Below, one piece after another: positions 5,131 through 57,123 of a stretch of 64,000 bases of DNA (position 1 is the stretch's first letter; each line of letters starts with the position of its first letter). A program made the translations under genes and the position numbers. Source of the DNA: Tridacna crocea. Taxonomy: Eukaryota > Mollusca > Bivalvia > Cardiida > Cardiidae. The stretch spans positions 23,760,427 to 23,824,426 of the forward strand of contig OX031065.1 of assembly GCA_943736015.1 (NCBI GenBank), given 5' to 3'. The notes beneath the pieces were generated by a model that saw only the letters and a list, made by a program, of their open reading frames with translations, was not told the origin of the DNA and made no database searches.

Positions 5131-6432
5131 TCAGTCTACAGTATTTCGTCTACATAAACAGCAGCACGCGTTAAACATCCGGGTCAGAAGTTTCTTGGCG
5201 TCCAACCGGAAGTTGATGTTTAGAAAACTGTATATAAGAGGATTGATGGCATTATTTATAAAGTACGATTTTACACAAAACTTGATAATCACTTCCTGTG
5301 TGTCCGTTAAATTCTCTTCGAAATCCTTTTTGATGCTCCGCATTACCATAACGATTAAGAATGGCAGAAAACTGATGACATATGCCACTGTCACAGCAAA
5401 GAGAACAATGGTCGTACGCGTTACTTTGATAGTACGCTTTTTTGGCGCTTTTAAGCTGTGTGTCGACACGGAAGACTTGCGCCTGTCTTTGCTGTATTTC
5501 TTTTTCGGCGTGTTTTCTACTATTTGATCTGAAGACATGTCTGTACTGATTGGATCAGACCCATTATCAATCTGAGGATCGGCAGTCACCTCCTCGGCTG
5601 TTGAATGACTTTCCTTTGTTGAACTGTTACTAAATGTTCTTCCCTTAGCATCTGAGTCGATTTGTTCTCCGATTTTAACTTTTTTCTGACGCCATATTTG
5701 CAAACCTATTTTACAGTATGTTATTGAGAAGAAAGTAATACAAGCTAGGAAGAGCAGACCGAGAAATCCGTAATACAGACTGGGATAGTGAGTATGGTCC
5801 ATAGAATCGTCTGTAGAACAGTCAACTCCAACAACATTGGGCTCTAGGTCTGTCGTGGCTCTCCCAAAAATAAAACACGTGGGCCAGGACAAAAGTATGC
5901 CTAAACCCATGGCAAGGACGCAGATACGTTTTGCAGAGGAAACAGATATCTGCTGTCCAAGCTTGCAGATTCGCAAATATCTGTCTACTGCCACTGATAT
6001 TAAAATGACGGAGGATCCAATGGTAGTCACAGATTCTGTAAAACGCAGTAGTTTACAAGCACCGGATGCATAAAACATGTAGGGATAACGGAGATCGGTG
6101 ATTTCCGTAGGCATTCCTATGATACAGGTCAAAAGGTCAAGAATGGCGAGTGCCATGATGAAAAATGTCGATGAAGCTTTCGAATGTTTGTTACAATATA
6201 CAAAACACACCAGAATATTTCCAAACGTCCCTATTACAGTAAGTAAGATCATATATACGATCACCGGAATATATAGTTCAGCTTTAGCGTCGTTATATTT
6301 GACCAGAATCGCTCTATAATCTTTTTCGGTTGGAACAGATATATTGTTCGTAGTTATTCCAGAAACTACCTGTCCACTTCCATTTCCATTTAAGTCCAAA
6401 GGAGGCGACACTGTAAGGATGGTGGTTGCCAT
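5131..6432 (-). CDS. Class A (rhodopsin-family) G-protein-coupled receptor, probably for a neuropeptide-like ligand
   Basis: A complete 433-aa seven-helix receptor in one coding exon. Approximate helices: TM1 53-79 with the G-N pair at 71-72, TM2 88-110 with LAxLD, TM3 126-148 followed by DRY at 150-152, TM4 168-190, TM5 216-240, TM6 337-363, TM7 386-404 with NPLIY at 397-401. Cys126 at the top of TM3 and Cys205 in the second outer loop can form the usual disulfide. N17 and N30 are N-glycosylation sequons. The third inner loop is long (about 247-336), rich in Ser/Thr and basic residues, including a Lys/Arg-Lys-Ser-Ser stretch near 318-322 that looks phosphorylatable. A cysteine cluster at 423-427 could be palmitoylated. 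TM6 has a Phe-Leu-Pro-Phe end but lacks the usual CWxP tryptophan. The ATG has a favourable context (G at -3 and +4) and sits 32 bases after a splice acceptor. Class A membership is clear; the ligand is not. CCK-, orexin- or orphan-like lophotrochozoan receptors are the nearest guesses. Confidence 0.93.
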   Translation of the reverse strand: MATTILTVSPPLDLNGNGSGQVVSGITTNNISVPTEKDYRAILVKYNDAKAELYIPVIVYMILLTVIGTFGNILVCFVYCNKHSKASSTFFIMALAILDLLTCIIGMPTEITDLRYPYMFYASGACKLLRFTESVTTIGSSVILISVAVDRYLRICKLGQQISVSSAKRICVLAMGLGILLSWPTCFIFGRATTDLEPNVVGVDCSTDDSMDHTHYPSLYYGFLGLLFLACITFFSITYCKIGLQIWRQKKVKIGEQIDSDAKGRTFSNSSTKESHSTAEEVTADPQIDNGSDPISTDMSSDQIVENTPKKKYSKDRRKSSVSTHSLKAPKKRTIKVTRTTIVLFAVTVAYVISFLPFLIVMVMRSIKKDFEENLTDTQEVIIKFCVKSYFINNAINPLIYSFLNINFRLDAKKLLTRMFNACCCLCRRNTVD

Positions 6433-6464
6433 GACTGGGGAACTTTCAGAAAATCAAGTTACGT
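6433..6464 (-). other. 5' UTR part of the GPCR coding exon, with splice acceptor
   Basis: On the minus strand a pyrimidine-rich tract (cttttctttcatttcag) ends in AG just before position 6464, 32 bases upstream of the receptor ATG. This predicts at least one upstream non-coding exon and explains why the coding region has no intron. The upstream exon itself could not be located. Confidence 0.6.
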
Positions 6465-29715: not shown

Positions 29716-29856
29716 TGAGATGACATCATTCTCAAAAAAAAAAAGGTATCTTTGAGATAGGTGGAAGAAGGTTTTTAGTATCAAGTTGAAAGTTTCCTTT
29801 CATTTATTTAGCACGATAAAGGTTAATGACAATTTCCATAAATATGTTTCGACCCT

Positions 29857-38035: not shown

Positions 38036-38305
38036 TTAGTGAGCATGTTTTTTCACATGGTTTCGAATAAAACATCGCACTCTGTCAGCGATCTTTTTCA
38101 CAAGGATTTTACTGATTTCATTGGGTGTTACACCAAACGCTTCTCGTAACTGAGGGCAATCATAAAACTTGGTGTGGATAGTGCTCTCTTTTATTCGTCC
38201 TTGGCAAATTTCCCGTTGGAAAACTTTTTCTATGGTATCTGCTTGGTTTTTACAGAAATATCGTCTTCCATGTTGAGTATGACCTTCTGTCGCTTGTTGT
38301 GGCAT
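38036..38305 (-). CDS. Receptor exon 13: C-terminal helical module and stop
   Basis: The terminal exon begins after ttttctttatcag and encodes 89 residues (MPQQATEGHTQHGRRYF..., ending KKHAH). The segment GRRYFCKNQADTIEKVFQRE, then LREAFGV and KIADRVRCFIRN, reads as a compact three-helix module, loosely like SANT/homeodomain-type folds that end many invertebrate tail regions. The internal Met at the exon start is not a true start, because the frame continues from exon 12. Confidence 0.78.
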   Translation of the reverse strand: MPQQATEGHTQHGRRYFCKNQADTIEKVFQREICQGRIKESTIHTKFYDCPQLREAFGVTPNEISKILVKKIADRVRCFIRNHVKKHAH

Positions 38306-38611
38306 CTGATAAAGAAAATATAACAACAATAGTTCACACATAGTCTTCGAGGCCAAATACAGCACAAGTTGTATAAGTGATTAGATCACTTTTAAACGGC
38401 CCTTTAATGAATAACCCTTAGGCTGCTTATCGCGACTGAATGACCTTTTGCGGACAGTGTAGATCAAGATCAGACTGCACAGAACGTGCAGTCTGATCTT
38501 GGATCTACACTATCCGATGAGGAAATATTACTCCCAGAAACATAACTTTGAAATTGCAATATTTGGGATTTTATTATCGAACTGAAAATTTCTCCTTAGT
38601 TATTCAGCAGG

Positions 38612-38644
<33 letters not shown>

Positions 38645-41600
38645 TAAATAAGCCGCGCAAGGTGGGTTTAATGCATCTTAGTTGTGCTTTACGGTAAGAT
38701 CCTTTTTGTGTACTAGAATATAAAAATCAGTAATACCCGTGTAATATCGAAAAATATTTTCACTGCTAATTCTCAATATCCTACCGGAAAGCATGAAATA
38801 AATAGTGATACTTTTTCTCCATACAGATAATTCAACTAAAATTACAGTTGAAAATGATTGGAGAATATGGATTCCGAACCTTGTTAGAAGAGTTATCATA
38901 GCTCGTGGACCGTGACACAGGAAGTTTCCGCTTCAGACCAATTCCTTTATCTATCTTTGATTCACACTTCTTAGCATCTGTTTCCATGCTGCTTGTTTGC
39001 CTGGCAACCGATTTACAATCTTGGCTTGTGTGTACATTGTGCCCTGGACATTCTGTGGCACACGATTTCGTATTTGTCTCTGACTCTCCCGAATCTAAGT
39101 ATTCCTTTGATATCTAATAATGATAATACATATCATACACCATTAAAACTCTAATCTAAAAACCGACACGGACAAAGAAGTAAGCTATAAATGCCAATGG
39201 AATTGCTCTATGTTTCTTTTTAAGTTTTAATCTGTCTATTTCCGATAAACTCAGAATAAACGTGTTTACTGACGTCCATAACATTAACTGCAACCACATA
39301 ACTCTAACCTGTCAAAACAGAATCATAAACATGTTTACGGGAAATATTTGAGTATGGTATAACCTTAAACCCTAACCTTAACCCTAACCTTTGAGTACCA
39401 TATGAAGGCAAGTGGGCGTGTTGATATAATGCACGTACTGTTATAGTTGAACATTAGTATGTAGAACACTGTCAAAGCTCCAGATAGATGGGATGATTTT
39501 GATTTCAAAATTGAAAATATTAATAATTCTTAACTAAATCCTATGTTGTGGGTACTCAGTAGAATCGTCTCATCGAGACGATTCTAATGAGTACCCACAA
39601 CATAGGGTTTTGAAGAGAAATAATGGATTTAGAATATCATCACTCCGTCTTATCTGATGCTCTGACATTGTGTTCGAGGCCGACAGAGAATTTCATGGCA
39701 TGATAAACTCCAAGTAAGAATATCTATCCCTGACATACATGTATATAGTTCTTAAATCTATATCTAGCATCTAATTTTGGACATCAACTGAAATACGTAT
39801 AATATACAGATATGTAAATTACCTGATTGCCATCGTACGTGAGAAATAGAAACCGTCGGTCAGCATCTTGTATCCGATGTATAACGTCTCTTCTCATTCT
39901 CTCTACGTAGATATCTAGTATTTTCCATTCCTCTTCGAATACTATCACTTTTCTTTCCCCAGTATTTATAATGTGAAGTATCCCATTCCGAGAAGTTGTC
40001 ACTTTCTCACGCATCATAAAATCTTCAAAACTGATGCCAAACAATTCCTGCAGTTCAGTACCAACAAAGCATGTTTGTTGTAATTTATGTAACATAAATT
40101 TAGTAAACAATCGGAATTCAGCCTTGTTTAATTTTTTACACTGGTCTAACTGCAGTATTCGCTGTATCAAATTTACACACATTATATCTTTCTCGGTGAA
40201 CGGAACACTCCCGGGATGCACTGCCATTGCAGTTTTACACAATTCTTGTTTCTGTTTCGATTTAATTTTGTTGGGGATTTTGCTTTTTCGGGGGAATTTA
40301 TACATGTATTTGTAACGCAATCTTCTAAACGGGGGATAACTGTATTGTCGTCGCATTCTGTAATGTTGTTTCCCTCTCCGATAAAAATATCCGTGTCTAT
40401 CTGTACTTTTGTAATCGCATATCAGCAACTCCTCTTGTGCTACTGGTGTAATCACGTGACTCTCTCCGGTGTCCTGTCTTGCGTCAAAGCATGGCAGCAA
40501 CGCCATATCTGTTCTCTGGAAACTTATTCTGTAGTCGAGTTCTGGGATTCGAGCCAATTCTGGGTTCTTAAAGTTAGTTTCTTGACCTGAACCATCGCTG
40601 TGCACGTAGAAATTCCTGTAAATATTACAATGAAAAAAAAAATCTATTTGGATTATTTCTCTTTGGTTTATCTTAGGCTATTTGTTTCGCTAAAATACTT
40701 ATTTCCTTATGTCGATTCCTTTGTAGAATAAACTGATTTAGAAATAACCTTAAATTACGCAAAAGTAAAGTCAGGCTTAATCACGTTGAAGATGATATCA
40801 AACATTGTTTAACTCATCTTAGTCTTTTAATAACATTTTTTTTAAACACTTTAACACCATTTAGAAAAAAAAGTGAACCATTTCATTTCTAGAGTTTTTT
40901 TTTTGACACTTGTTACGCAGTTTTATTGTTTTTAGCCCATTACCTTTTATAATGTATACTCCACTGCAAATCAATCACAGAATTTCATGGTGTATGATAC
41001 AATAATTATGGTGAACTTACTGAACCTCCGTTTTCATATCAACCAGGACATCTTCATGGAATGACCATCCTAGAGCATGCTCGATGTCCTCTAGACTGGT
41101 AGACGGGTGTAGTCTTTTCCAATACCAAAGTATATTGTATAGGATGACTTCAATTTTTTCTCCACCAGGCTGGGTTTTGGAACTGTTTTCAATTCGACTT
41201 ATGGTTGTATTAGCACTCTGTCCATGAGGGAGTCGCGCACCTGGTTTAAAATGCATAAAAGCGTTTGGTGTATTCTTCTACTGATACACTTACTGATTTT
41301 ACCTCGATTGTGAGACAAGTTTTTATATCTTACTCTCAATGACGGCTTCATTGAAACCTCGACCAGTACTGATGAGGACGATTCCAAAGGCTGAGTCCGC
41401 TCGCGTGAATTGAACTCAGAACTATAGGTGTGAGAGGCTGACGCTCTGCCACCTCACCGCACTCTCTTACAAGACGCATTGAAAAGTACCTGTCGTTCTA
41501 GTACCCATTTTGATGATTGACAACATTCCCAAGTTTTAAGTTAATATCTTTAGTCGAAATAGAGATATAACAACATAGTTTCGCACCACGACAATGCTCA

Positions 41601-44600
41601 TGATAAGGACGCAGACAATGATGACAGGGCTACAGCAATACCGCGATCTTTCATCTGAAAGCAGCTGAGATAATGATAAAAGATGATATAAAAGTGTATC
41701 TGACACCTTAGTTATAGATAAACAACTCTGTAGACAATAACTGTAATTAGTAGATATACTGAAGTACGAGTCACGTTCTTCGAAAAGAGGGTTTGATACA
41801 TCTGCAAAACAGTATCAAGCCAGGTTAACCCGGGCAGGCTGACCTGGTTGGACACTTTTGTTTAAATGTCAATTTCCTGTATGTCAAAGGGCCAGCCTAC
41901 CTGATTATTCAGTCGGTTGTTTCAGATTATGGGTTATATGAATCCATAATTACATAATAACTCTCTTTGTAAAATACAACACGGAGATGCATTAAACCCC
42001 CGTTTACCAGAATACGGCTTATACATAAAAAAATATTAATTTATCCATTTTTTCTTATAAAATATAATCAAATAACATTGAAAATTCAAGTACTACCAAC
42101 GTTAGGTTGGTAGCAAAAATAAAAACAGTTTGCAGAATAATAGCAGAATCTTACCGAGCAGATTAATCGCAAAGAGTTTCCAATTATCTGTACAGACTTT
42201 CGGAATAAGAAAACAGAACAGTTTATGCCAGTTAAGTGTCGGGATGACCGCTGTAGCGTTATCCAGGCTTGTGTTGATTGTTTCTAGTCCTGCGTAAATA
42301 CAGATTTAAGGCGATCAGTATATGAGTGTAACATCGTATTATACAGAGAAAATTATACCTTACGATACAGCTCAGGCATTGGGAATGAGTGTACTTTAAA
42401 CAATTAACTCGTCCACAGTAAACGGATGTAAATCGTGCGAATGGTCACAGTTTCTACTATAATAACTAGGTAAAAAAAGTATATGGAAGAACAAAATTAC
42501 ATAGGAAAAATGAGTTTTGTTGGCCTAGTGCAGTAGTTCTTTGATATGACATGACAGGGAAAATATCCGTGAGAGTTTAGTACCATTTATTTCATGCTTT
42601 TCAGTAGTTTATCTAGAAATAAAGGTGGAATATTATTCGATAGTTCATGATTACAACCGAAAAATACCTCTTTGATTGTCTAACTCTTCAACTGAAGGTG
42701 GAAAAATTAGTTTCCACGCACTAGTTACATGTACCTCGGTAAACAGCGCATGCCATCCGGCCATATGAATGTATTACGTAATTTGCCTTATATTTCTTGC
42801 TCTGTACCTAACATTATAATTAATTGTTATGTGGAGGGGGTATGTCGTGTGGACTTTACCAAACCAAAAGAAAGGATTTTGATGTAAGCACCCCCTCCAA
42901 AAAAATGAAATAAATAGAATAAATGTAATTGTTTTTAGTATTATTACCGATGATGTTCACCCTATGAAATGAATTTCGATCAATCACCGGAAAAAATCCT
43001 CTATCTGTTTACTGGTCATGCGGTGAAAAAAAAAAAACAATATATCTGGGTATTGGCAACGGTCAGAATTAGAGACTTTTGTGCTACAAAGTGTATACTT
43101 CTTTCAACCGCAGCTTTATCAAAGAAACTGTCACCTGTTTCATGGCGCTCGTCCGTACTCTCCGCTGTTTTACCAATGCAGTCATCTCCGGCTTTAAGGG
43201 GTGTGACCAAACACACATTCGCTGCTATTTCTTTTTGGATGGAGGATAACTTCTCTTTGCAAACAGTTTCGATGGGTACATGGTTAGTTACAAGCTCGCC
43301 AATAATCATATCGTTGGTTTCCAGCCCACTGGAGTTTGTTTCAACTTGCTTCGTACCTTGTATGGTGTTGTGGACGCTGAGCTTATCTTCTGTCTCTTTA
43401 GAACATAACTCTTCTAACGGTATAATTGGGTTTTCATAAAGGTGCATCTTTGATTCATCCATCAACATTTTTGTAGTTGTCTTCGTATCTATAGTTGCAT
43501 GTACATTCAAGTCCACAGTCACAGCTTGAAGCTGTGTGGGCTTTTCCTCGATATCAGTAAAGTAAGAGAATTTGGAGGTAGAGCTTCTTTTACTAAAACA
43601 AATTATAAGAAAAAGCAAACCTGAACTATTGAGCGTATTCTGAGTGTCTACCGGTACAAACAAAGCTTGTTTAACCCTATAAGCCAACATAGTAAAGGCA
43701 GCGAGTCAGAATGACATCACTCCACTGATTTGATGTTGTTTTATAGTTTAGTGGGGCAACCATTTCTACTGTCGTTTATGTATGAAATTATGACACGAGT
43801 GAAGAAGAGTGCGGTGGCAGTCCTAAAACTTTTTTGCACATAATCTTCATAATCTGAGATCCATTTTTTATCACCCTCTATAAAATATGTGATCTTTATC
43901 GTAGGGCTACTTCTTTTCAACCCACAGAGTTCTTGCCAAACTTAGAGGCTCTGGACCACTGTTTGTGAGGAGTAGCGTTTACATCCTTTTATTTGCTTAT
44001 GTGGATTTAAAAAAATAAACATATCCGACTTCTAATGAGACTAATTGACCTTAAGATTAAGTGTCTATATATATAATCTTGGCTGTGATTTTTTATGTAA
44101 ACCACAGCTCTACACAGAAAACGTTCATTTCCCTAGATAACTTTCGACAGGCAAGTCTGTTGCACATCACTTTTAAAGAACAATACTCTACACGATTCTC
44201 ATGAAATTCTCTTCTTTTACAAAACGCTGTTATGTGTTAGCTGTACTAAATAAAAAGCCTTCAATCCGTTGAAGAATATCTTTCGATAATCCTAGATACC
44301 ATCTTGTGACGGCTATCTAGTTTGGAGACCCTTTGTAGCTCACCTGAGCACAACGTGCTTTAGGGGAGCTTTTAGGATCACCCGGTGTCCGTCGTGCGTT
44401 GTCAACAATTCTTTAAACATCAAATCCTTCTTAACCGCTGGGCCAATTTGGATTAAACTTGGCTGGAATGTTCCTTGGGAGGTCCTCTTTGAAAATTGTT
44501 CACAGAATTTGATTCCATCAAAAACTGGTTGCCATGGCAACCAAATGGAATTTTCTAAGAAATTCTTTAAAAATCTTCTTCTCTGAAACTGCTGGCCAGA

Positions 44601-47600
44601 TTTTAAAATAATTAAACAGAATTGTTCCTTGAGTGACCCTTTTCAAAACTTGTTCGCGAAATTTTGATCCGTCAAGAAACATGGCTCTGGTGAATGGGGG
44701 CTACTTGCACTATACAGGAATGAAGAAATTCTTAAAAAATTCTTCTTCTCTGAAACCGCTGGTCAGATTTTGAAAAGGATGTTCCTTGGGTGTCCCTTTT
44801 AAAAAACTGTTCGTGAAATTTTGATTAATCAAGAAACATGGCTTTGGTGAATGGGGGCTACTTGTACTATAAAAAATGAAAACATTCTTCTTCTCTCGAA
44901 CGGCCTGTCAGATTTTGAAATAATTTCACAGAGATGATCCGTCAAGAAACACGGCTCTGGTGAATGGGGGCTACTTGCACTATACGGACATGAAGAAATT
45001 CTTGAAAATTCTTCTTCTCTGACATGGCTGGTCAGATTTTAAAATAATTTCACAGAAATGTTCCTTGAATGACCCTTTTCAATAAATGTTCGCAAAATTT
45101 TGATTCGTCAAGAAACATGGCTCTGGTGAATAGGGACTACTTGCACTGTACAGAAATTAAGAAACTCCTAAAAATGTTTCTTTTCTGAAACTGCTGGTCA
45201 GATTTTGAAGGAATTTTACAAGTGATCTTTTGAAAATTGCTTGGCAAAATAATGATTTTGTTTCTACTGTTTCAATACCTCAAAAAAGAATGGCTATGGT
45301 CCTCTCAAAAATTCAGGTTAGCGATCCAGGGCCATCTTGGCCCTCTTGTTATATTATTGCTCCGTCATGTTGACGTTGCATCTTTGTTATCCAATAACAC
45401 TCACAAACAAGTTCATTTTCTTAAAAGAAAAAAGCATTTCTCTATATTGTTGTTTATCCCTTTACCAAACGACAAAATTTTAGACTAGTCCAATTTGAAA
45501 GCAGCACTTGCAGACGAGAAAATAAATGTAACTGAAAAGTCGAAATTTGTTTTAAGCAGGATCGAAAACATTGTATGGAAAGGAGAAAATCCTCGCCAAC
45601 AGCATTTACTCCTTTTCCCACAACATTTTCAAAAGGCCTGTATCTCAGGGTCGTAAAAACCAGGGATTGTTTGGTAATAAGTTAATATAGTAGTTTATTG
45701 ATCCTGATATACTAACATCTTACTTAAAGTAATTTGGCGTTCTCTGTTGCAAGAGAAGACTGCGATATTTTTTCTCTTTAATTCTAATCATCTCATTAAA
45801 AGTTTGTTCTTCTAAAAGGTTAGCCTAAATTTATACGTAAATTAGTATTGCAAGATGAGATATACCTTTCAGAAATAAGGTGATGATGTACATAAAGCTT
45901 ACCGTCTGCAGTTTAAACGTCTGCGTAAAATAATCAAGGTACAAACAACGAACAAAATCAGTACCAAAACTATACCACAGGTGTATAGTAGCTCAATGTG
46001 GCTGTTTTCCCTTTTATCTGTAATAGATACAAATATTGAGGACGCTTTCTGGTTTATACGTCTGCGTAAAATAATCATGGTACAAACAACGAACAAAATC
46101 AGTACCAATACTATACCCCAGGTATACAGTAGCTCGATGTAGCTTTTTTCCCTTTTATCGGTAATATATACAAATATCGACGACACTTACAGAATCATGA
46201 ATAGCTTTCGCAGATGGCGTGGATAAAAGTCAGACTGCATAGAACGCACATTCTGACCTTTGATTGGCACCGTCCATTTACTGCAGTCTAAAATATGATC
46301 AAAATATCCTTGTATTTCAAATGGAACTGTTTATAGCCATCAAGGAAGTTTATTTGTTATTTTGACAGCGAATAAGTTCAACGGAAAAACAACCCGATGT
46401 ACCTGAAAAACAATATTTACTCTGGAATTACATATATGTAGAGAAGCAATACTGAAAAAAAAGATAGTAATTTCACCTTGTTTTTTACCTTGATCTCTGC
46501 CTATCAAATTAATTTATACATATTCATTTTACATCGATCGAGAAACAAGTTATATCAACTTATGAATACTAATCTCGCTCGATTCTGCTCCCTGGAACCT
46601 ACACCAGTTCTTGCATCAAATGTGTATAGCATTGTACAGTCCCTAAGTCTCCAATGCTGGCTCTTGGGAAATTCATGTTAGTAAATCTATTGAAAAAGCC
46701 TGGAAAAGGATTGGAATCATGCGGCATTTAAAAACGTGCCTCGGTCGTCTTTCTCTGCAAATCATTTACTTTTCATTTATCAGGCCTTTGAATATGTTAA
46801 TGTCGTGTGGGACAATTTTTCTCAGGGCCCGAAAGATCAACTGGATAAAGTTCAAACTGAAATTCAAATTGACATAGTAACAGGCTGCATCAAACTGGCT
46901 GATTTATACCAAGAAACTGGATGGGAAAGTAAAAGCCAAAGGGAGCCAAAACACAAACTGATTCTCTTCTATAAAATGTTAAATGGACAGTCTCCCAATT
47001 ATCTTGGTGTTCTTTTGCCTCAGACATTCTTCGAAGACCAAATAACTTGCTAATCATGGCTTAAAGAACCAGCTTGTAGTTGGCTTAATCAGCATTTGTA
47101 TTTGAAAAATATAGTCCAGTCGCCCCTTTGTACACGCCGCTCCGTTGTATCAACTCAACATTACTTCTTTGATTGTCCGTTTTACCGAGACATAAGAGTC
47201 AGTCTAAACAATAGTATATGTATAATTACAGGAGTTACTCTTCAAGTCACATTATATGGTGATGAAGATCTGAATCTACCGGATCAAGAAAAATACTAGC
47301 AGCAGTTCATACTTATATTAGTCAACGGAAAGATTTAGTTAGTATAATTTTGCCGTTTTCTTCCTTTGGTTGTGATTTCCTGGCTTCCAAAACTCGGTCT
47401 AAATGACATAGCTGCTTATATACGTATCTCGAAAAGTTACTGCACATTCTTTTATTGATAGCAACCAATATCTACTGATCTGTGATGGTCTTGAAGGAAG
47501 ACAATGATTTGTAAAATTACCCCCAGTTTCAGTCTTCCATTTAAAACATTACACACTAATCTGCTTTTTTTCTTTTTCTAATTTTTTACGGTTTTCTCTC

Positions 47601-50600
47601 AGCACCCATCAAATTACCTCTATTATTTATTTTTCTTACACTAAGCAATATATAATTTTAATAGTGTTCCGGGATCTTGGAGAAGAACCATATAAGCTTA
47701 GCTTTCGTTCTAATCCATTTCGACGGTTATATTTGTTACTTCAATTGATTTGTCATTTAATCTTTGTATTGAACTGATGAATAAAATATCTTGAAACTAA
47801 GCTGACACCCGCCGCTCCTGGGTATCGAGCTCAGAACCTTATGATTACGAGGCCGACGCTCTACTTTATGATCACTAACACCTTTACACCATCAAATTGA
47901 AGCCACGTAACAATATATTGTTATTTTTTACAGTTGTCCCCATCTGATATTTAGCAAGTTAATTGAAACCATTGTAAGACACACCTTTCATCTGTAGCAA
48001 ATGAACTGAGGTAGCATTGAAATGCCTTGCTAATTTTTGACGGATATCTCCTCTGGATGTCCAACAATTTGAATGGAACTTAATCAAAGAATAGCGTAAA
48101 CTTTCACTGATTTTAGCCAATGGCTGTTAGACTATCCACTATTTTTGACTTAATTTCAATACCATGTCTAGAAATAAAAGAAAGCCATACAAACCAGAGT
48201 ATATAATTGTATTTATCATCCGTTCTTATCTTGACGTATTTTGTCCTGGTTTTATTCAGATCATAATCTAATTGGTAATTTATTGTTGATTTCACATTTC
48301 TATCTTTCGAATCGCATTTTTATTCAATGGATTGCTTTATCTTCTTGCATTCAGCATGTTATTTATTTAATAATTTTACCTCTACATATTGTATAATTTA
48401 TATTCGAAGTAAAACGATACTTCTCATTTTTTTTAAATTCATGGTTCAAATTTGATTTCATGTAAGTGAATAGAAACCATGATGATCCGAATTTCTGCTT
48501 TATTTCTACTTTATAGTTCCGGATTCCCTTTCAATCCTGATATTCGACTTGAATATTCAAATAGCAATGGCAATTGACGAATTGTGCAATATACTGTTCT
48601 AGCACGAGGGTGACACAATAACTAAATCAGTTATTTTTAATACCGCTGCCATTCCATTTTCTTTTTTGTTTTTGTTTAGTTTACTAATGAAATATCTCAT
48701 CTCCAGAAATTACAGCTGCAACAAACTGTGTTAAAGGATGAGGATATAGAAATGCAAGTTTGACACGTGCTCGGTTTGTAACTGACCTGTTTTCTGAAGG
48801 CATCTGGGTTCCGGATAAGTCCATCTACCATACCGACAGGAGCTTTGATCGTGACCATCAAGGGTGTAACCAGGGGCACACTCAAACACTACTGTATCGA
48901 TCCCGTCAGCTGTTTTGCTATTGTGTAGCACTCCAAAAGCCGGATTCTTCATTTCAGGACAACCTTTATTCAAATCAAGCAGACGCAACTCTTTACGTCA
49001 CATACACAAAAGTGACAAATGTATATTGGTTTTTTTTACAGCATAATTAAAACATGGGTTTTAAGCATCAGTTGAAATTGATATTTACCAAGCAAGTTGT
49101 GTAACAGTAGCTGCTGATGCGAGCCAAAGGTAATGCTGCGTGTTCGTTTATTTCTGCAAGAAAGCACGGGTTTATATCTACATTTATCATATTATCTCCC
49201 GCTAGATGGTATTCTATAAGTACTCATCTATCTAATTTCGGCATCCTGGGTACAGAACCGAACCACTTTCCTACGCGACAACCGTTACTTTGAATTTCAA
49301 ACTAAAATAAATTTTTACTCAATAAAACGCTACCTCGTGCAATTCACTCAGCTATGATTAGCAGTATAGAGAAATCTGGGGCTAAAGCAGGTCTCATTTC
49401 TCCTCAAACGTATTGATAAAAGTTATTTTCTACATTGCTACTTTATAGAGCGTAATATTACAGTCTGCCCGCTTTTGGGGCTGGTGATGCGTCATATAAG
49501 ACAGGTAGAATCTTCGAAGAACATGACATGCGCAGACAACGACATTTATCATCTTAAAACAAGGTATTTGCTTATGAGCCGCATATTGGGAAAAGAGACT
49601 GATACATCTCGGTGTTCCATTATACCAAGCAAATTTATGGATCCATAAAACTTGTTTGTGTGACAACCGACTAGAAAATTAATAAGGAGCAAAAAGTCTC
49701 GTGCTATGTTAGCCTGCAAAATGGATTGATTAAACTGTCTTTTAACAGAACATGATTTGCATACTGGTTTTATGTCTTACATAAATTATTTTAGGAATTT
49801 TAAAAGGCTGTATATTCTGATGGTGAGAATATTTTTTTTTATTTTGTTTGTATTTGAATTATGTCTTAATATCTTCCCAGGGTAGACTTACAGCATAGCG
49901 TTCATTATTTATTTCTTCACGTTTCCAACGGAAATCGCCTAGAGCATTTGATGTAAATTAGAACAGGAGAACTTACGTTTACGTTCACATTTGGCGATAT
50001 TCGACCAGACGCCAGACGCCAGACATTTTGATTTAGCAGATCCGCTGAGATTAAATCCCTCGTCACATTTAACTGTCAATCTGGATCCATATGTTGTAGT
50101 ATTATATATCAGCGTTGTGTTATCAGCGTAGCTGGGATGGCCACAATCTGTGAAGTAGTACATGTTGTATTAGAGACAATATAACTCTAAACTAACAAGT
50201 AATTAAACCATTGTGTCATTTACTACATGGATATATATATGTCTTACACAGTGAAAAGATATTTCAATGCATCTTGAAAAAAGTATAGCCTGCGTAGGCT
50301 GATGTGGATTGAAACTTTCCAACTTTCTTGTGGTTTTCTGCGTGCAGTTGTGTCTACTTTATCAAAAACGATTTCTTATACCAAAATCCATAGGCTTTGT
50401 AACGAAGATCTTTTTGTCAGCAAGGAAATGTCAGTTTCAAACCATTCTACGTGTACACAAAATTTACTTGAAATACCTTTTATTTGACAACGGGGGTACT
50501 CATCCTCTCGCAGTTCCTCATAACATATGACAGAGGTTCTGCCTTTAAGTTCATATCCACGGTAACAGATCATGTTAACCACCCAGCCGTAGAAATTATC

Positions 50601-53600
50601 ATGGAATGAATGAATGGTTCCATTAGCCGGCTTATACTTATGACGACAATCTGAAAATGTAAATATCAACGATTTATGTTATAATACACGTACACGCAAT
50701 GACCCCCAGGGCTGGGCCAGTTTTGACCTCAAGAACATCATATAAACAAACTGAGAAGGGCTCTACTAGGAGATGCTACATATCAAATATAAAAATATAT
50801 GCCATTTACTTTCAGAGGAGAAGATTTTTAAAGTTTTCCCTCTTTGTTCCTATGCTCAAACTTGTGACCCACGGGGCGGGGCTAGTTTTGACCCCAGGGG
50901 CATCATTTGAACAAACTTGGTAGAGTTCTACTAGGAGATGCCACAAACCAAATATCAAAGCTCTACGCCATCAAGTTTCTGAGGACAAGAATTTTAAAGT
51001 TTTCCTTCTTTGTTCCTATGCTTAAAATTGTGCCCCCAGGGACGGGGCCAGTTTTGACCCAAGGGGCATCATTTGAACAAAATAGGTAGAAGTCCACTCG
51101 GAGATGCAACAGACCAAATATCACAGCTCTACGCTTTCTATTTTCTGAGAAGAAGATTTTTAAAGTTTTCCTTCTTTGTTCCTATGCTCAAACTTGTGAC
51201 CCCTGGAGAAGGGCCAGTTTTGACCCCAGGGGCATCATTTGAAATTTACTTGATAGAGGTCCACTTGGAGATGCCACAAACCAAATATCAAAGCTCTACG
51301 CCATCAAGTTTCAGAGGAGAAGAATTCTAAAGTTTTCCTTCTCTGTTCCTATGCTCAAACTTGTGACCCCAAGGGGCGGGGCCAGTTTTGACCCCAGGGG
51401 CATCATTTGAAATTTGCTTGGTAGAGGTCCACTAGGAGATGCCACAACCCAAATATCAAAGCTCTACGCCGTCTAGGTCTAGAGGAGAAGAATTTTAAAG
51501 TTTTTCTTCATTGTTCCTATGCTCAAATTTGTGACCCCCGGGGTGGGGTCAGTTTTGACCCCACGGGCATCATTTGAACAAACTTGGTAGAAATCCACTA
51601 GGAAATGCAACAGACCAAATAGCAAAGCTCTACACTATCAAGTTTCAGAGGAGAAGATTTTTAAAATTTTCCTTCTTTGTTCCTATGCTCAAACTTGTGA
51701 CCCCCGGGGTGGGCCCAGTTTTGGCCCTATGGACATAATTTGAATATACTTTGTAGAGGTCCACTAGGAGATGTCACATACCAAATATCAAAGCTCTACG
51801 CCTTCTAGTTTCACAGAAGAAGATTTTTAAAGATTTTTTCTTTCCTTTTTGTTGCCATAGCATCCAGAGTTATGGGTGGAATTCAATTCTTTAAATAATT
51901 TTGGTAGAACTTTACCCAAGGAACATTCCTGCCAAGTTTCATCAAGATTGCCCAAGTGATTTAGGAGAAGAAGATGTTTAAAGAAATTGCTGACGGACTA
52001 CGGACATGGGGCGATCATAATAACTCACCTTTAGCACTTTGTGCTATAGTGAGCTAAAAATTGTTTTGTTCTGAAATATGGCGATCGTATTGAGTTCAGT
52101 CAGGATAAAGAAGTCTCCATAAATTCTAAATGTGCCCAGTCACCACATCGCACACATTTTCTCATTGCGGGAGAGAAAAACCCCTTTATAGGTGCAGAAG
52201 CATTCCTTTTCATCTCTGATGAAAGAGGGGTGTTGGTCGTTTTCTTTGTTTAGTTCTAGGTTTGGGTGACTTTTCTTTCTTCTGATTGATTTTTCATTTG
52301 ACTTTGATTGTAAAGTAGACCCCATCTTGTCTTTTGATGTGCAGTTTTGAACTTTGCTGTGTTGGCAACGGTAGTTTTTCTTCCATTTGCTTTCTCCTTC
52401 TCATATTGACGAAGTATTTCTACATTACTTCCTTTTGTAAAGACTTTACCACCTAAAAAGGGATGCCTCTTTAAACTCAGTAGGAAAAGAGAGCGGTGTG
52501 GCTTCACAGTTTTTAGATGCTGATCGGTCTATTCTTCTCAGTAGAAAAATTGCCACTTCTTAAGTTTTTTTTTAATTTCAAAGGGAATGACTCAGCTAAA
52601 ACAAATTTGTCAAGAGGAACAATGTCTGGTTTAAAAAAACAAATTCCATTTTTTTCTAAACGATGCAATGATGCTTGCAAGAGTCAATGTTTTTCCTATA
52701 ACCCTTACATGATATCTCACACATGTTGTTCTTAGTTATGACTTCACCACGCTGCTTGGCCATCCATAAGCTGCATTCACTGTAGAAGGCAGACTTAAAA
52801 AGGCCAAAACATTTGACACCTAGAGGCTGCGGTACACGTGAAGTTCGGGGAGGTAAGACAAACAAAATTATTTTCTTTTCTCTTTTCCATTCAATGACGT
52901 CTAGTATGACCTGAGAAGTATGACCACATTACATTAAAAGAACATGATCATCTGTGTTGATACCAGCTTGAGCATATTGTAAAAAAAGGTCGAGCAGGGA
53001 CATCGTTTATACAGTTTTGTTTGACCATCCTGTCTCTGTCAAAGCAACCGCCAGGCAGGGCACCTTAAAGCAGATCATTATTTATTCGCTTTCAACACAT
53101 AATAAGGTGGCAAAACTGTTCCGCGAGCTCCTCTATGCACAATGACTAAAAACCTCAGTTCTTTGGGCCAGATTTAATTTGGCGTCTATAAATTCGTTCA
53201 ATCTGCACAATCCTGTAATGGCATCATCTGATAAAAAGTTAAATTGTATAAGACGACATTCACATGTACGTCTCATACTAAGTATGACATTGGGGTACTT
53301 TTGGGGTTTAGACGACAAAAAGTACTTACCCTCCTCAGCTTGCATGTGGTATCGGCATTTAGCTCTCAGGCGCCGATGTCGAATCCGATCATGTGCTGTA
53401 TGAACGTTCTTCGTCATTTGAGGGTCACCTACACACAGAAACAAACAGCAAACAGATCTACTTATTACTAGGCCACCAATGCTGACAAGTGAGACTCAAG
53501 CATATTTTGCGAACAATGTAGAAAAAGATGAGACTCCACGACAGTTTTGTCTGACTAGAATTTACACAACAGAAACGGTTTTTTTTTTTGTTTTTGTTGT

Positions 53601-53737
53601 TGTTGTTTTTCTCCCGACGACAAGAAATATCGAAATAGTGTAAGTCATGAGGCTGGAATTTTTTATTTAGATTTAATTGTCTAACCAGTTTAATGATTAC
53701 TGTGCTTCGGGGAAAGGGCGAAAATCGGGGAGGGTAT

Positions 53738-53777
<40 letters not shown>

Positions 53778-56700
53778 CGAGAGAGTGCTCAGTGTTTCTT
53801 GGCTTTAAAAACAAAGGATAACAGACAAACATGCTGCATCTACACGTGTAGGAATTGAAATATGTTATTTATTTATACGAGTACGTATACCATGCATAAT
53901 TTGAGAGATTTATATGCTAGTAATTCTTATCTATACCGGTTAGAATCTTTTTGCAGTGCTGGTGAAGTCTGCCTCTTCCTTGCTTTCTTCTTTCCGGCTC
54001 ACGTACTTGTAGCCCGACATTTAAAGCAACAGCTGTCGCCAGTATGATAAAAACCTGCAATACATCATTAAACCAACCAGTTCGAACTTACAAAATACAA
54101 GTCTACCCTACAGCATATCCTCAGTTTGTGTGAATAACTCGTTGAAATTCCACCAATACCTTTTAGCAACATCACTTAGTCAGTGCACATAAATGTGTAA
54201 ACATGTGTATGTATAACTGAAGTTCATTCAATCAAATATCAAACCCATCAACTATCTAAAAAAAACTGAAAACTGTGTGTCCCTACAGTGCACCCATACA
54301 TAAACCAACAGTTATTTTCATTATATCTGTAGACGGTTGATATGTGCTTTCGGCAGAATCAAATATGTGAAACTTCAGCTGTTTGAAGTACACTCTATCC
54401 CCACAATAGAATCAAATAAACCAAGATATCTGACAAACCCCTTAAACCAACAGCTATGTAGGCTAAAATTTGTTACCACGCTATGTCAATGGCAATTTTC
54501 ACATGAAGTCAGTACCAGGTAGAATCACTTCAATTGTCACAGCATGCAACAATGCCGCGTCTCATGCTAGTACCGAAACGTTATCTTAAATAGTTTTCAC
54601 CTGTATTTTTTTCTGTGTAACGGGTTCACCCAACGTCTTTGGAGGTGGATAAAGCCTTCATACACATTTTACAATAACATAGATCCAAATATTATGACGA
54701 TAGTAATGTCCATTAAGTCTGCCTCGATATATATGCAAATCTACAAGGGTATTCTATCCGTCATTGTGACCCCAAGCTATTCCCTAACACAAGTCTTAAT
54801 CCACCTCCACGCCGTTAAGATATGGAACTTTCGAAGGTCAGGGTACAGAAGAAAAATCATTTTGAACCTATCTGCACCGATAACTACGTGTATTTGTCCA
54901 TTTTAGCTCATCTAAGCACAAAGTGCTCATGGTGAGCTTTTGTGATCGCCCAATGTCCGTCGTCCGTCGTGCGTCGTCCGTCGTTCACAATTTCTTTAAA
55001 CATATTCTCCTCCCAAACCACTGGGCCAATCTTGATGAAACTTGGTAAGGATGTTCCTTGGGTGAAGCTCTACCAAAGTTGTTCAAGAGATTGAATTCCA
55101 GCTATAACTCTGGTTGCCATGGCAACCAAAAGGAAAAAAATAGCAAAATCTTTGAAAATCTTCTTCTCTGAAACTAGAAGGCGTAGAGCTGTGATATTTG
55201 GTATGTAGCATCTCCTAGTGGACCTCTACCAAGATTCTTCATATAATGTCCCTGGGGTCAAAACTGGTCCCGCCCCGGGGGTCACAAGTTTGGAACATAG
55301 GAACAAAGGAAAACTTTAAAAATCTTCTTCTCTGAAAGCAGAAGGTACAGAGCTTTGATATTTGGTATGTAGCATCTCCTAGTAGACCTCTACCAAGATT
55401 GTTCATATGATGCCCCTTGGATCGAAACTGGCCCAGCCCCGGGGGTCACAAGTTTGAAACATAGGAACAAAGAAGGAAAACTTTAAAATTATTTTTCTAT
55501 GAAACTGGAAGGGGCACAGCTTTGATATTTGGTATGTAGCATCTCCTAGTGGACCTCTACTAAGATTATTCATATGATGTCCCTGGGGTCAAAACTGGCT
55601 CCGCCCCCGGGGTCACAATTTTGAAAAATAGGAACAACGAAGGAAAACTTTAAAAATCTTCTTCTCTGAAACCAGAAGGTACAGAGCTTTGATATTTGGT
55701 ATGTAGTATCTCCTATTAGACCTCTACCACGATTGTTCATATGATGTCCCTGGGGTCAAAACTGGCCCCGCCCCGGGGGTCACAAGTTTGAAACATAGGA
55801 ATAAAGAAGGAAAACTTTAAAATTCTTGTTCTATGCAACTAGAAGGGGCACAGCTTTGATATTTTTCATGTAGCATCTCCTAGTGGACCTCTACCAAGAT
55901 TGTTCATATGATGCCCCATGGGTCCAAACTGGCCCAGCCTCGGGGGTCACAAGTTTGAAACATAAGAACAAAGAAGGAAAAACTTTAAAAATCTTCTTCT
56001 CTGAAACAAGGAGTAGAGCTTTGATATTTAGTATGAAGCATCTGCTAGTTGACCTCTACCAAGTTTGTTCACATGATGTCTCTGGGGTCCAAACTGACCC
56101 AGCCTCGGGGGTCCAAGTTTGAAACATAGGAACAAAGAAGGAAAATTTTAAAAATATTTTTCTCTGAAACTGGAAATCCTAGAGCTTTGATATTTCATTA
56201 TGTAGTATCTTTTAGTGGATCTCTACCAAATAGGATACGATGATCTTTTCGGAAAAGAAGAATTTTCATTGTAGACCTTTACTGCTTAGTGCTCAGGTGA
56301 GCGACATAGGACCATCATGGTCCTCTTGTCTTTAATTGTTAGATGATCGACCAAGGACAGTTTTAGTCATCCGTGATAGACCAATAGAGCTTCAAAGGCA
56401 CGTGGGATGGTTGGAATCTTTTAAATCTCTATAAACGTTCACATTCAAAGCCACCACACATGTATTTTCCATTTAAAAGCGTAACCCCTAGGCTGCAAAG
56501 CGCAATTCTCTGACCTCCTGCAGGTCAAGGTCAGACTGCACATTCTGTGCACCCAGATCTTGCATGTACACTGTCTAATAAGGTGTGTTTCCCCTTTGAA
56601 ATCAATTATGAAAACAGTAATTGAATTTTTACTTTTGAACGGATGTTTTTTTTTTTTGTCTCATCTATTCAGCAGTTCAACTTAACAAATAAGGCCAAAA

Positions 56701-57123
56701 GTAAAAAATAAGGGGGATTAAATGCATTCAAATCTATATGATACCGTTCAAAAGTATGGAAGTCATTGTGTAGATGACAATATGTCATTGTGCAGTCGGC
56801 CCAAGTCTCAGTTGCTAATAGACAAATTAGTTTCCAAAAAATGTTAAAACATACCCTGTAGCTGTGTTTATTAATTGCCTAATTTTATAAATTATTTTGC
56901 CAGCGACTAACACATAGTTCGGCCACACAGAAACTGATTGTCATCTTCACAATTTTTCCATACTTTTAAAATAGTAATATTTGAAGTTAAATGTATTATG
57001 ACACATCCTTTGATATTTTGGCCTCTACTGTGCCTTTAAGGAATAACAAACCTGTAAAAGACGATGACGATGCATGTTTCTATGCTGTCATTAACACCAA
57101 ATTCCATAAAGTCATGTGAAGCT
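38036..57123 (-). CDS. Sushi-domain, transmembrane, death-domain receptor: 13-exon gene (whole locus)
   Basis: Joining the exons 57123..57052, 54054..54003, 53428..53330, 50650..50477, 50147..49977, 48963..48787, 46185..45903, 43592..43099, 42289..42155, 41240..41021, 40615..39823, 39113..38880 and 38305..38036, with translation from the ATG at 57075, gives one open frame of 1041 aa and a stop at 38036. Every junction has GT/AG and matching phase. Domains: signal peptide ~1-22; partial CCP-like segment 27-58; sushi domains ~59-116, 117-173 and 174-230; transmembrane exon 234-327 with two near-identical 47-aa copies; Ser/Thr-rich cytoplasmic linker 328-492; death domain ~507-602; tail 610-1041 with a very basic stretch at 686-735. 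Death domains recruit other death-fold adaptors to drive NF-kB-type or apoptotic signalling, and sushi domains bind proteins or glycans, so an immune-type surface receptor is likely. The exact ligand and family are unknown. Introns hold a pogo relic, a LINE relic and three arrays of the R repeat. Confidence 0.82.
38451..38517. repeat. P palindrome in receptor intron 12
   Basis: cggacagtgtagatcaagat arms, centre cacagaacgtg; nearly perfect. Confidence 0.78.
38611..38643. repeat. (AAT)n microsatellite
   Basis: Eleven aat units. Confidence 0.9.
38880..39113 (-). CDS. Receptor exon 12: low-complexity tail segment
   Basis: A 234-bp phase 0-0 exon between ttattag and AAG|GTTCGG encoding 78 polar residues (ISKEYLDSGESETNTK...). 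Several Cys and a short LKRKLP basic motif are visible. There is no recognised domain. The frame is closed in the other two readings, which supports this one. Confidence 0.72.
39359..39392. repeat. Short interstitial telomere-like stretch
   Basis: aaaccctaaccttaaccctaacc, the CCCTAA telomere motif interrupted by ccttaa units. Confidence 0.6.
39478..39668. mobile_element. X palindromic element copy 2, receptor intron 11
   Basis: Same element as at 12441, in the opposite orientation: the arm gattttgatttcaaaa lies at the left here and at the right there. Confidence 0.68.
39823..40615 (-). CDS. Receptor exon 11: long tail with basic stretch and helical region
   Basis: The largest exon (793 bp), residues 611-874, from tatttacag to CAG|GTAATT. 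Residues 686-735 are packed with Arg, Lys and Tyr and could act as a nuclear-localisation or acidic-lipid-binding stretch. Residues ~748-812 (starting VPFTEKDIMCVNLIQRIL and ending LQELFGISFEDF) and ~834-870 (FEEEWKILDIYVERMRRDVI) look helical and resemble the module in exon 13. I recognise no named domain. Confidence 0.8.
41021..41240 (-). CDS. Receptor exon 10: second half of the death domain
   Basis: The G|GT junction joins LLG to ARLPHG in frame. The exon carries the remaining death-domain helices: ISRIENSS, then EVILYNILWYWKRLHP with the conserved Trp, then TSLEDIEHALGWSFHEDV. This matches the family order in which a W-x-x-x-x-P segment is followed by T-x-x-x-L-x-x-A-L. The donor CA|GTAAGT leaves two bases that pair with G of exon 11. 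Confidence 0.84.
41385..41475 (-). mobile_element. tRNA-like SINE head, receptor intron 9
   Basis: On the minus strand ggtgaggtggcagagcgtca (A-box-like) and agttctgagttcaattc (B-box-like). Confidence 0.5.
41787..42017. mobile_element. C element, receptor intron 9
   Basis: gaaaagagggtttgatacat at left, half of the palindrome lost, gagatgcattaaacccccgt at right. Confidence 0.68.
42155..42289 (-). CDS. Receptor exon 9: first half of the death domain
   Basis: A 135-bp exon (acceptor tatttacgcag, donor CTCG|GTAAGA) encoding LETINTSL and then the helices LNWHKLFCFLIPKV and NWKLFAINLLG. The NW-x-x-L-A pattern followed by LG is the typical helix 2-3 signature of death domains. It is too short to appear in a simple ORF search. 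Confidence 0.84.
42580..43000. repeat. Second copy of the 10620-11530 repeat, receptor intron 8
   Basis: tttatttcatgcttttcagt, ctaactcttcaactgaaggt and gatgttcac..atgaaatgaatttcgatc match the first copy. The hairpin is deleted. Confidence 0.55.
43099..43592 (-). CDS. Receptor exon 8: Ser/Thr/Glu-rich cytoplasmic linker
   Basis: Begins after the tract ataatttgttttag and encodes residues 328-491, a hydrophilic linker with no recognised domain (for example YENPIIPLEELCSKE). The donor AGAA|GTATAC leaves one base that joins GA of exon 9 to give Arg. Other GT sites further on are out of phase. The open frame extends upstream of the acceptor, but that part reads through the pyrimidine tract. Confidence 0.74.
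43700..44335. other. Receptor intron 7, no feature seen
   Basis: AT-rich intronic DNA between exon 8 and the R element, without recognised repeats. Confidence 0.4.
44336..45355 (+). mobile_element. R-family element in receptor intron 7
   Basis: Begins tagctcacctgagcacaacg and ends ggccctcttg. The interior has about five degenerate units, each with 'cttcttctctgaaa', 'ctggtcagatttt', 'atgttcctt' and 'ggtgaatgggggctacttg'. Same orientation as the copy at 54905 and inverted to the one at 50690. Confidence 0.7.
45455..45685. mobile_element. T element, receptor intron 7
   Basis: ccaaacgacaaaattttaga at left, worn hairpin, TTAA at 45682-45685. Confidence 0.7.
45903..46185 (-). CDS. Receptor exon 7: transmembrane exon with tandem-duplicated helix
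   Basis: The 283-bp exon encodes two almost identical 47-residue units. Each starts SSIFV.ITDKRE, continues IELLYT and ends with the helix GIVLVLILFVVC..IILRRR. The first helix is ~256-272 and the second ~302-319 of the predicted protein. Positive residues after each helix mark the cytoplasmic side. The two units are 141 bp each and highly alike at DNA level, so the duplication is recent. The phase is 1 at the acceptor and 2 at the donor (CG|GTAAGC), matching exons 6 and 8. Confidence 0.8.
46204..46274. repeat. P palindrome, diverged
   Basis: cagatggcgtggataaaagt and a tgacctttgattggcaccgt arm, 20 bases upstream of the transmembrane exon. Confidence 0.5.
46600..47335 (+). pseudogene. Truncated non-LTR retrotransposon (reverse transcriptase 3' end) in receptor intron 6
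   Basis: Fragments in shifting frames match the end of LINE reverse transcriptases: IEKAWKRIGIMRHLKT near 46690, then VVWDNFSQGPKDQLDKVQTE, LYQETGWESKS, KHKLILFYKMLNGQSPNYLG, and a later FFDCPFYRDIR motif. Frameshifts and stops make it non-functional. It lies antisense to the receptor gene. A tail near 47770 (gatgaataaaatatc) may be the 3' end. Confidence 0.72.
47805..47900 (-). mobile_element. tRNA-like SINE head, receptor intron 6
   Basis: On the minus strand taaagtagagcgtcggcctc and ggttctgagctcgataccca resemble A and B boxes. No full cloverleaf. Confidence 0.5.
47910..48780. other. Receptor intron 6, no feature seen
   Basis: AT-rich intronic DNA; no hairpin families or open frames worth calling. 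Confidence 0.4.
48787..48963 (-). CDS. Receptor exon 6: sushi/CCP domain 3
   Basis: A canonical sushi exon, phase 1-1: Cys in GCPEMKN, FECAPGY, SSCRYGR and PRCLQK, with Trp in GRWTY. It is the membrane-proximal domain, directly followed in the spliced frame by the transmembrane exon. The acceptor (ttgaataaag) has a weak pyrimidine tract; the donor is G|GTCAGT. Confidence 0.87.
49190..49560 (-). repeat. Dispersed ~300-bp repeat, reverse copy in receptor intron 6
   Basis: Reverse copy of the repeat at 19255, including the ctggg-tacagaaccg end. It also lacks the H element at the matching position. Confidence 0.7.
49977..50147 (-). CDS. Receptor exon 5: sushi/CCP domain 2
   Basis: A canonical sushi exon, phase 1-1. 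The four Cys are in CGHPSYA, VKCDEGF, SKCLAS and AKCERK, and the Trp is present in SGVWS. Three N-glycosylation sequons (NTT, NTT, NLS) indicate an extracellular location. The acceptor is tacttcacag. The donor GTAAGT after 49977 was preferred to a weaker GTAAAC six bases earlier; both keep the phase. Confidence 0.87.
50235..50320. mobile_element. C element, small fragment in receptor intron 4
   Basis: aatgcatcttgaaaaaagta, then gcctgcgtaggctgatgtgg. Confidence 0.4.
50477..50650 (-). CDS. Receptor exon 4: sushi/CCP domain 1
   Basis: A phase 1-1 exon, one domain per exon as usual for sushi modules. The four Cys are in the contexts CRHKYKP, MICYRGY, VICYEE and PRCQIK. The conserved Trp between the third and fourth Cys is absent. 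N68 is in an NGT sequon. The acceptor tttacattttcag and donor G|GTATTT bound the exon. Confidence 0.82.
50690..52062 (-). mobile_element. R-family element with ~165-bp core-repeat array, receptor intron 3
   Basis: About seven tandem units of ~165 bp. The landmark 'cttgtgaccc..gggg' recurs near 50865, 51028, 51195, 51360, 51532 and 51698. The right end reads gcactttgtgctatagtgagct. The layout of a tandem core with unique ends resembles the pearl/CvA-type Helitron-like elements of bivalves, but that placement is inference. Confidence 0.8.
52140..53110 (-). pseudogene. Pogo/Tigger-type DDE_1 transposase relic in receptor intron 3
   Basis: Between exons 3 and 4 the minus strand holds broken pieces of a DDE_1 transposase C-terminal half. 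The pieces VLPPRTSRVPQPLGVKCFGL, the following CSLWMAKQRGEVITKNNMCE, and in another frame NGICFFKPDIVPLDKFVLAE match the order seen in pogo-like transposases of molluscs. Stops and frameshifts interrupt it, for example between the segments at 52870 and 52650. No intact ends were found. It is on the same strand as the host gene. Confidence 0.7.
53330..53428 (-). CDS. Receptor exon 3: partial CCP-like segment
   Basis: A 99-bp phase 1-1 exon between tgtgtag and GTAAGT. It encodes DPQMTKNVHTAHDRIRHRRL and the following residues, with a single Cys inside an AKCRYHM motif that resembles the second-Cys region of a sushi domain. It is too short and Cys-poor to be a complete sushi domain, so either half of a domain has been lost or a partner exon was missed. 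Confidence 0.6.
53741..53773. repeat. (GA)n microsatellite in receptor intron 2
   Basis: Pure ga run. Confidence 0.92.
54003..54054 (-). CDS. Receptor exon 2: hydrophobic core of the signal peptide
   Basis: After the acceptor tgtattgcag the frame reads VFIILATAVALNVGLQV, which with exon 1 makes a typical secretion signal: basic n-region, hydrophobic core and small residues near the cleavage site. The donor GTGAGC after 54003 leaves one base (phase 1), fitting exon 3. A second in-phase donor GTATAG after 53937 would add 22 residues with a basic, furin-like run and one Cys. Confidence 0.62.
54905..56330 (+). mobile_element. R-family element with ~165-bp core-repeat array, receptor intron 1
   Basis: Starts tagctcatctaagcacaaag, then repeated cgtcgtccgtc, then about seven units with 'agcatctcctagtggacctc' recurring near 55207, 55370, 55540, 55708, 55870 and 56035. 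Ends ccatcatggtcctcttg. It is the inverted counterpart of the array at 50690-52062. Confidence 0.8.
56515..56580. repeat. P palindrome
   Basis: caggtcaaggtcagactgca, centre cattctgtg; receptor intron 1. Confidence 0.6.
57052..57123 (-). CDS. Receptor exon 1: 5' UTR tail, start codon and first 8 codons
   Basis: An acceptor (ctgttttatttcag) precedes 57123, so an earlier non-coding exon probably exists. The ATG at 57075..57073 opens MHRHRLLQ and the donor CAG|GTTTGT follows in phase 0. This start was chosen because it alone continues in frame into the hydrophobic stretch of exon 2. Two upstream ATGs in the same exon are in other frames: one hits a stop and the other joins exon 2 out of frame. 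Confidence 0.68.

Follow-up and report, generated by a model that had tools for sequence, protein, structure and literature searches.

Death receptors of the TNF-receptor type, including Fas, TNFR1 and DR6, are type I proteins with recognition modules outside the cell, a single membrane pass and an inner death domain that gathers adaptors. Complement regulators and the alpha chains of the IL-2 and IL-15 receptors carry sushi modules on phase 1-1 exons, pass the membrane once and typically end in short cytoplasmic tails. The current study describes a gene that shares features with each of these groups. As in TNF-receptor-type death receptors, its predicted product is of type I, with recognition modules outside, one membrane pass and a death-like module inside; however, the outer modules are sushi modules rather than TNFR cysteine-rich repeats, and a long linker precedes, and a 431-aa tail follows, the putative death-like segment. 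The phase 1-1 sushi exons and the single membrane pass are shared with the complement regulators and the interleukin receptor chains, whereas the short tails of those proteins contrast with about 700 cytoplasmic residues here, which include the death-like segment.

A precedent in kind can be found among the hybrid immune genes of amphioxus, which include a cDNA-backed TNFR-caspase membrane protein (PMC2575513). In that case as well, module shuffling couples outside recognition to a cell-death part within one membrane protein, although TNFR and caspase modules are combined there and sushi modules and a death-like segment here; the text of PMC2575513 does not contain the word "sushi". No sushi-transmembrane-death protein was found in the literature searched, which lay mostly outside the subscription journals, nor in the portions covered of PMC5094078, PMC8260672, PMC11788884, PMC9334734, PMC2575513, PMC6526094 and PMC11797021. 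On balance, and with modest confidence, we read the present gene from its sequence as encoding a type I single-pass sushi receptor with a strongly diverged cytoplasmic death domain.

Gene model and outer half

The window, i.e. the whole stretch of 64,000 nucleotides that was analysed, corresponds to C10:23760427-23824426, and genome searches covered 1.05 Gb in 31 contigs. When exons were joined from the DNA letters, 13 minus-strand exons formed a single frame from the ATG at 57075 to the TAA ending at 38036, which reproduces the gene outline proposed in the first-pass annotation. Each of the 12 introns has GT at its start and AG at its end, and the exons are phase-matched at every junction (phases, in order, 0,1,1,1,1,1,2,1,1,2,0,0). 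The product begins with a signal-peptide-like start, followed by three sushi modules, of which two are clear and one is weak, a TM helix with RRR directly after it, a linker of 153 aa, a death-domain-like segment of 118 aa spread over two exons and a basic tail of 431 aa. The individual features are as follows, with copy 2 denoting the second genomic copy of the gene.

57052..57075, minus strand: E1, opening 8 codons with the ATG (MHRHRLLQ); ends in phase 0; 24 nt, too short for a standalone test; joins E2 as a signal-peptide-like start, with 0 differences in copy 2 and the donor GT retained
53937..54054, minus strand: E2, signal-peptide hydrophobic core, then the beginning of the mature chain; phase 0-1; identical in copy 2
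53330..53428, minus strand: E3, a short exon of basic character; phase 1-1; identical in copy 2
50477..50650, minus strand: sushi module 1, four Cys, the stretch from Cys 3 to Cys 4 lacking Trp; phase 1-1
49977..50147, minus strand: sushi module 2; phase 1-1; Pfam Sushi 2.8e-9
48787..48963, minus strand: sushi module 3; phase 1-1; Pfam Sushi 1.5e-8
46044..46158, minus strand: dead tandem copy of the TM exon, directly upstream of it, 100/115 bases identical; CCG replaces the CAG acceptor and the donor is lost
45903..46017, minus strand: TM exon, TCGIVLVLILFVVCTLIIL then RRR; phase 1-2; based on hydropathy and the splice scan
43135..43592, minus strand: IC1, acidic linker of 153 aa on the cytoplasmic side; phase 2-1
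42155..42289, minus strand: DDa, first part of the death-domain-like segment (helices 1-2); phase 1-1
41021..41240, minus strand: DDb, second part of that segment (helices 3-6); phase 1-2
39823..40615, minus strand: C1, basic tail exon, 264 aa; phase 2-0; no domain
38880..39113, minus strand: C2, tail linker; phase 0-0; splice sites and frame retained in copy 2
38036..38305, minus strand: C3, last exon, 89 aa and the stop; frame and stop retained in copy 2

Our reconstruction gives a product of 995 aa, as opposed to the 1041 aa stated previously. The death domain, formerly placed at residues 507-602, corresponds here to a segment at residues 447-564 with helix 1 near residue 464, and this offset of about 45 residues indicates that the discrepancy in length lies upstream of the death-like segment, where about 45 aa were not reproduced. 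Certain parts of the model are weaker than others. E3 was chosen as the top of three phase-1 candidates found from 63900 to 50700 by our own splice scan, while a home-made splice matrix gave low acceptor scores to sushi module 3 (-3.4) and C2 (-1.7) and low donor scores to sushi module 1 (0.7) and DDb (1.0). C2 and C3 are so short that neither is conspicuous as an open frame; C1 lies within an open frame of 297 aa. The sushi matches, the 297-aa open frame around C1 and the retention in the second genomic copy all go beyond chance.

The outer half of the product can be described with greater assurance. E1 and E2 together read MHRHRLLQVFIILATAVALNVGLQ, a signal-peptide-like start. In a Kyte-Doolittle hydropathy scan, only two peaks stand out: the signal-peptide-like stretch at residue 7 (1.98) and the membrane helix at residue 267 (3.15), the most hydrophobic stretch being residues 267-285, directly followed by RRR. 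The single membrane region anticipated by the first-pass annotation is thereby confirmed. Sushi modules are usually encoded by a single phase 1-1 exon each, and all three modules adhere to this arrangement. When the joined N-terminal 564 aa were compared with Pfam, Sushi was matched over three stretches at 9.8e-17 (61.5 bits vs a cut-off of 20.7), and the listing at E<=10 consisted of Sushi and weak others, with no TNFR repeat among them. Modules 2 and 3 pass the cut-off singly, whereas module 1 falls below it (no match as an ORF; 0.11 and 13.4 bits when trimmed) and is included among the three Sushi stretches of the joined chain. With Sushi over the cut-off, and with a signal-peptide-like start and one TM helix in one frame, the product classes as a Sushi-domain type I membrane protein. 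The predicted outer half, comprising the signal-peptide-like start, the sushi modules and one membrane pass ahead of a long cytoplasmic region, is therefore well supported.

The death-domain-like segment

DDa and DDb together read LNWHKLFCFLIPKVCTDNWKLFAINLLGARLPHGQSANTTISRIENSSKTQPGGEKIEVILYNILWYWKRLHPSTSLEDIEHALGWSFHEDVLVDM, which resembles a set of six death-domain helices, the second and fourth of which contain Trp. The first-pass annotation had called a death domain here and had named the lack of a Death hit as grounds for abandoning the call; Pfam Death (PF00531) indeed gave no match at E<=10, either with the single exons or with the joined DDa+DDb segment. A genome-wide Death search listed 26 places, none of which is at this gene, and a PDB sequence search with the death-like segment returned 0 matches.

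A profile of our own was assembled from 20 of the 26 Death places in the genome, chosen because they pass Pfam. Against this same-genome profile, the death-like segment scored 5.5 bits (E=0.0012 for one sequence), above every open reading frame of at least 40 aa in the window (714/714, the best reaching 4.3 bits) and above 2990/3000 shuffles; the remaining 10/3000 reached 5.5 bits, the best of them 11.1. The match falls in helix 2 and helices 4-5. Among six other parts of the protein compared with the profile, four scored, none above 0.4 bits, and two were without a score. In leave-one-out comparisons with the same profile, 20/20 of the left-out death domains scored above the segment at 20.4-56.1 bits, a range that is biased upwards by their selection for passing Pfam. 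AlphaFold applied to the DDb exon alone placed helices at 25-43, 49-56 and 62-65 (mean pLDDT 64, pTM 0.39). In this low-confidence half domain, the helices sit where death-domain helices 4-6 would be, and a Foldseek search with the same model gave 7 matches, the best at E=4.1, with no death domain among them.

It is conceivable, albeit unlikely, that the receptor is real and that residues 447-564 are not a death domain, in which case they and the tail would form an orphan cytoplasmic region acting through another signalling route. Such a region would be in keeping with the missing Pfam, PDB and PHROGs matches of segment and tail, with a profile score far under those of the 20 true death domains and with the DDb model having no structural match, whereas it would leave unexplained why the segment surpasses all 714 window ORFs and 2990 of the 3000 shuffles, why the match coincides with helix 2 and helices 4-5 and why DDb displays this helix pattern. 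The earlier call thus fails with Pfam, while the same-genome profile and the arrangement of helices continue to favour it, albeit weakly. We infer that residues 447-564 may form a strongly diverged death domain, which is probably the best single reading of this segment; as such, a death domain is plausible rather than proven.

By analogy with other sushi proteins and with death receptors, a most likely mechanism can be proposed for a receptor of this kind. The cytoplasmic region of about 700 residues lies in the same frame as the sushi modules, behind a membrane helix with a basic stop-transfer. Firstly, the sushi modules would engage either a ligand or a surface, complement-like or microbial, and the receptor might then cluster in the membrane. 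Secondly, the death-like modules of adjacent chains could gather death-domain adaptors, which would set off signalling of the caspase or NF-kB type. A docking or regulatory function would presumably be added by the basic tail of 431 residues. With respect to the original proposal of an outer recognition part coupled to a death-domain signal, the receptor layout is well supported and the death domain only weakly so. The gene could conceivably represent a new class of invertebrate death-domain receptor, with sushi modules of the complement type on the outside and, on the inside, a death domain that has diverged strongly and a unique tail, basic and 431 residues long; such a receptor would join complement-like recognition directly to cell death or NF-kB at one locus with a near-identical second copy, although we regard this broader proposal as tentative and somewhat doubtful.

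If the death domain is true, complement-style recognition would be wired into a death-domain pathway within one protein, creating a new entry to apoptosis or NF-kB signalling in an invertebrate. Furthermore, the gene would constitute another innate receptor derived from module shuffling across pathway levels, after the amphioxus hybrids of PMC2575513. If it is false, the gene still encodes a sushi receptor whose cytoplasmic region, about 700 residues long, goes unnamed by the libraries searched.

Second copy and constraint

A second copy of the whole gene, which the first-pass account leaves out, is located 309 kb away. The genome search placed the partner of C1, 98% identical, at C10:24109120-24109911, and the duplicated stretch spans at least window 29747-61501 (the fetched copy begins at 29747), with its partner at about 24.099-24.134 Mb of C10. 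Six long aligned pieces of this stretch are 93.4-98.7% identical, mostly 97.5-98.7%, and copy 2 contains about 3.05 kb of extra sequence at window 43823/43824. The introns around C1-C3 (window 38.4-40.7 kb) exhibit a copy divergence of about 5-7%, several times that found elsewhere. The left edge of the duplication should lie within 6.4-29.7 kb, since a 1201-base piece of a GPCR gene (5.2-6.4 kb) has no second full copy; this piece gave one full genome match and a 59-base partial match on C7. The GPCR gene itself is an intronless class A open frame of 440 aa on the minus strand at window 5131-6453 (Pfam 7tm_1 9.6e-35). The second copy may be a true duplication, or the two copies may be haplotypes included on one contig.

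In copy 2, 12/12 acceptors and 12/12 donors are intact, as are the frame and the stop. Exonic sequence differs between the copies by a single indel, a 6-nt in-frame insertion in C2 of copy 2, whereas 51 indel events separate the introns. Together with one indel at the border after the stop, the exon events compare with 9.7 expected (P=0.0035 for two or fewer), and no frame-breaking indel or stop occurs in either copy over 2988 nt of exon. The retained splice sites, frame and stop, together with the scarcity of exon indels, lend good support to a type I receptor gene.

Substitutions between the copies number 0/241 in E1-E3, 1/522 in the sushi exons, 1/115 in the TM exon, 5/458 in IC1, 4/355 in the DD exons, 9/793 in C1, 9/234 in C2 and 7/270 in C3. 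For all exons combined, the count is not significantly lower than in the introns (36/2988 vs 252/15690, p=0.057). E1-E3 and the sushi exons amount to 1 substitution per 763 nt, with their flanks at about 1.4-1.6%. Compared with their own flanks, substitutions are fewer in E1-E3 (p=0.035), the sushi exons (p=0.0035) and C1 (p=1.9e-8; 9/793 vs 76/1342 in adjacent sequence) and are not lower in TM, IC1, DD, C2 or C3. The low substitution relative to flanks argues that the outer half and C1 have been held constant. Synonymous and non-synonymous changes stand at 14:22 overall, with 26.7 non-synonymous expected (P=0.058). Non-synonymous changes are 14 vs 18.4 expected in C1-C3 (P=0.042) and 7 vs 6.9 expected in IC1-DDb. 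By this comparison of sequences, the frame of the IC1 linker and the death-like segment is intact in copy 2, but no protein constraint is apparent.

One might suppose that the inner half of an old receptor is decaying, its cytoplasmic part being no longer important, and that domain calls fail because this half drifts. IC1 does contain 5 non-synonymous and 0 synonymous changes, and the inner exons hold 34/36 of all exon differences; however, a decaying region would hardly be expected to stay free of frame-breaking indels and stops over 2988 nt in both copies, to include an exon as clearly less diverged than its flanks as C1 or to show the deficit of non-synonymous changes in C1-C3, and we consider this scenario very improbable.

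The IC1 open frame continues past its donor to a stop at 43016, giving 229 aa in both copies, which leaves room for an isoform that ends before the death-like part. A receptor isoform of this type is possible. The same extension could signify that two genes or isoforms were wrongly joined, with a sushi receptor ending in or after IC1 and a separate cytoplasmic gene comprising DDa-C3, an arrangement for which the several weak splice sites and the different constraint on the outer and inner halves could also be cited. It is nevertheless a rather improbable one, given that all junctions are in phase, every splice site is retained in copy 2 and the IC1 donor is good; in addition, a non-systematic look noticed no start exon for a separate gene.

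Basic tail and genomic surroundings

The tail encoded by C1-C3, which is absent from the first-pass account, comprises 431 aa and is basic, with a pI of 9.4. Nothing convincing was matched in Pfam at E<=10, PHROGs gave no match for C1 or C3 and neither exon has significant relatives in the genome besides the second copy. C3 matched the genome weakly at L034-L037 (E 1.3-5.3), as did C1 at L003 (E 0.21), with no sign of a related gene; by our reading, L035 and L037 appear to sit in reverse-transcriptase-like ORFs. Two PDB matches of C1, both to Era, are at chance level (E=1.5), a search for C1 in viral contigs yielded 7 pattern matches with 0 confirmed, and the AlphaFold model of C1 alone was unusable (mean pLDDT 36). 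An internal repeat between C1b and C3 is not claimed, as 293, 72 and 153/3000 shuffles scored as high at gap costs of 11, 8 and 6.

The tail was also compared with tyrosine-recombinase-like genes, to which a likeness had been presumed. Such genes are present in the genome at 5 places (best 3.4e-9, with a hand-written query), and C1-C3 could in principle be a relic of a mobile gene of this type fused to the receptor. This origin is already unsupported and highly improbable: when the tail was aligned with the best such gene (L038), 599/1000 shuffles for C1b+C2 and 82/1000 for C3 reached the score, and neither Pfam nor PHROGs gave an integrase match.

Returning to the receptor as one 13-exon gene, all genome matches to its first 446 aa outside the two copies fall within residues 81-260, i.e. 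the sushi part, and a genome search with the death-like segment returns the two copies only. The gene therefore appears to occur once, in two near-identical copies. The closest Sushi-Death pair elsewhere, found by eye among 150 scored of 952 sushi candidates and the 26 Death places, is about 770 kb apart, a comparison in which equally diverged sister genes would be missed, since both lists omit the window's own exons.

Several further features were encountered. In the window, two arrays of repeats of about 170 bp at 50700-51993 and 54901-56229, in opposite orientation, flank E2 and E3. On C17, twin open frames of 783 aa with a Death domain lie about 28 kb apart, at 32310999 and 32338686. Tandem arrays of near-identical sushi exons are present on C5 at 53.16-53.23 Mb, and long intronless sushi open frames of 972 and 732 aa are found on C4 at 62.94 Mb.
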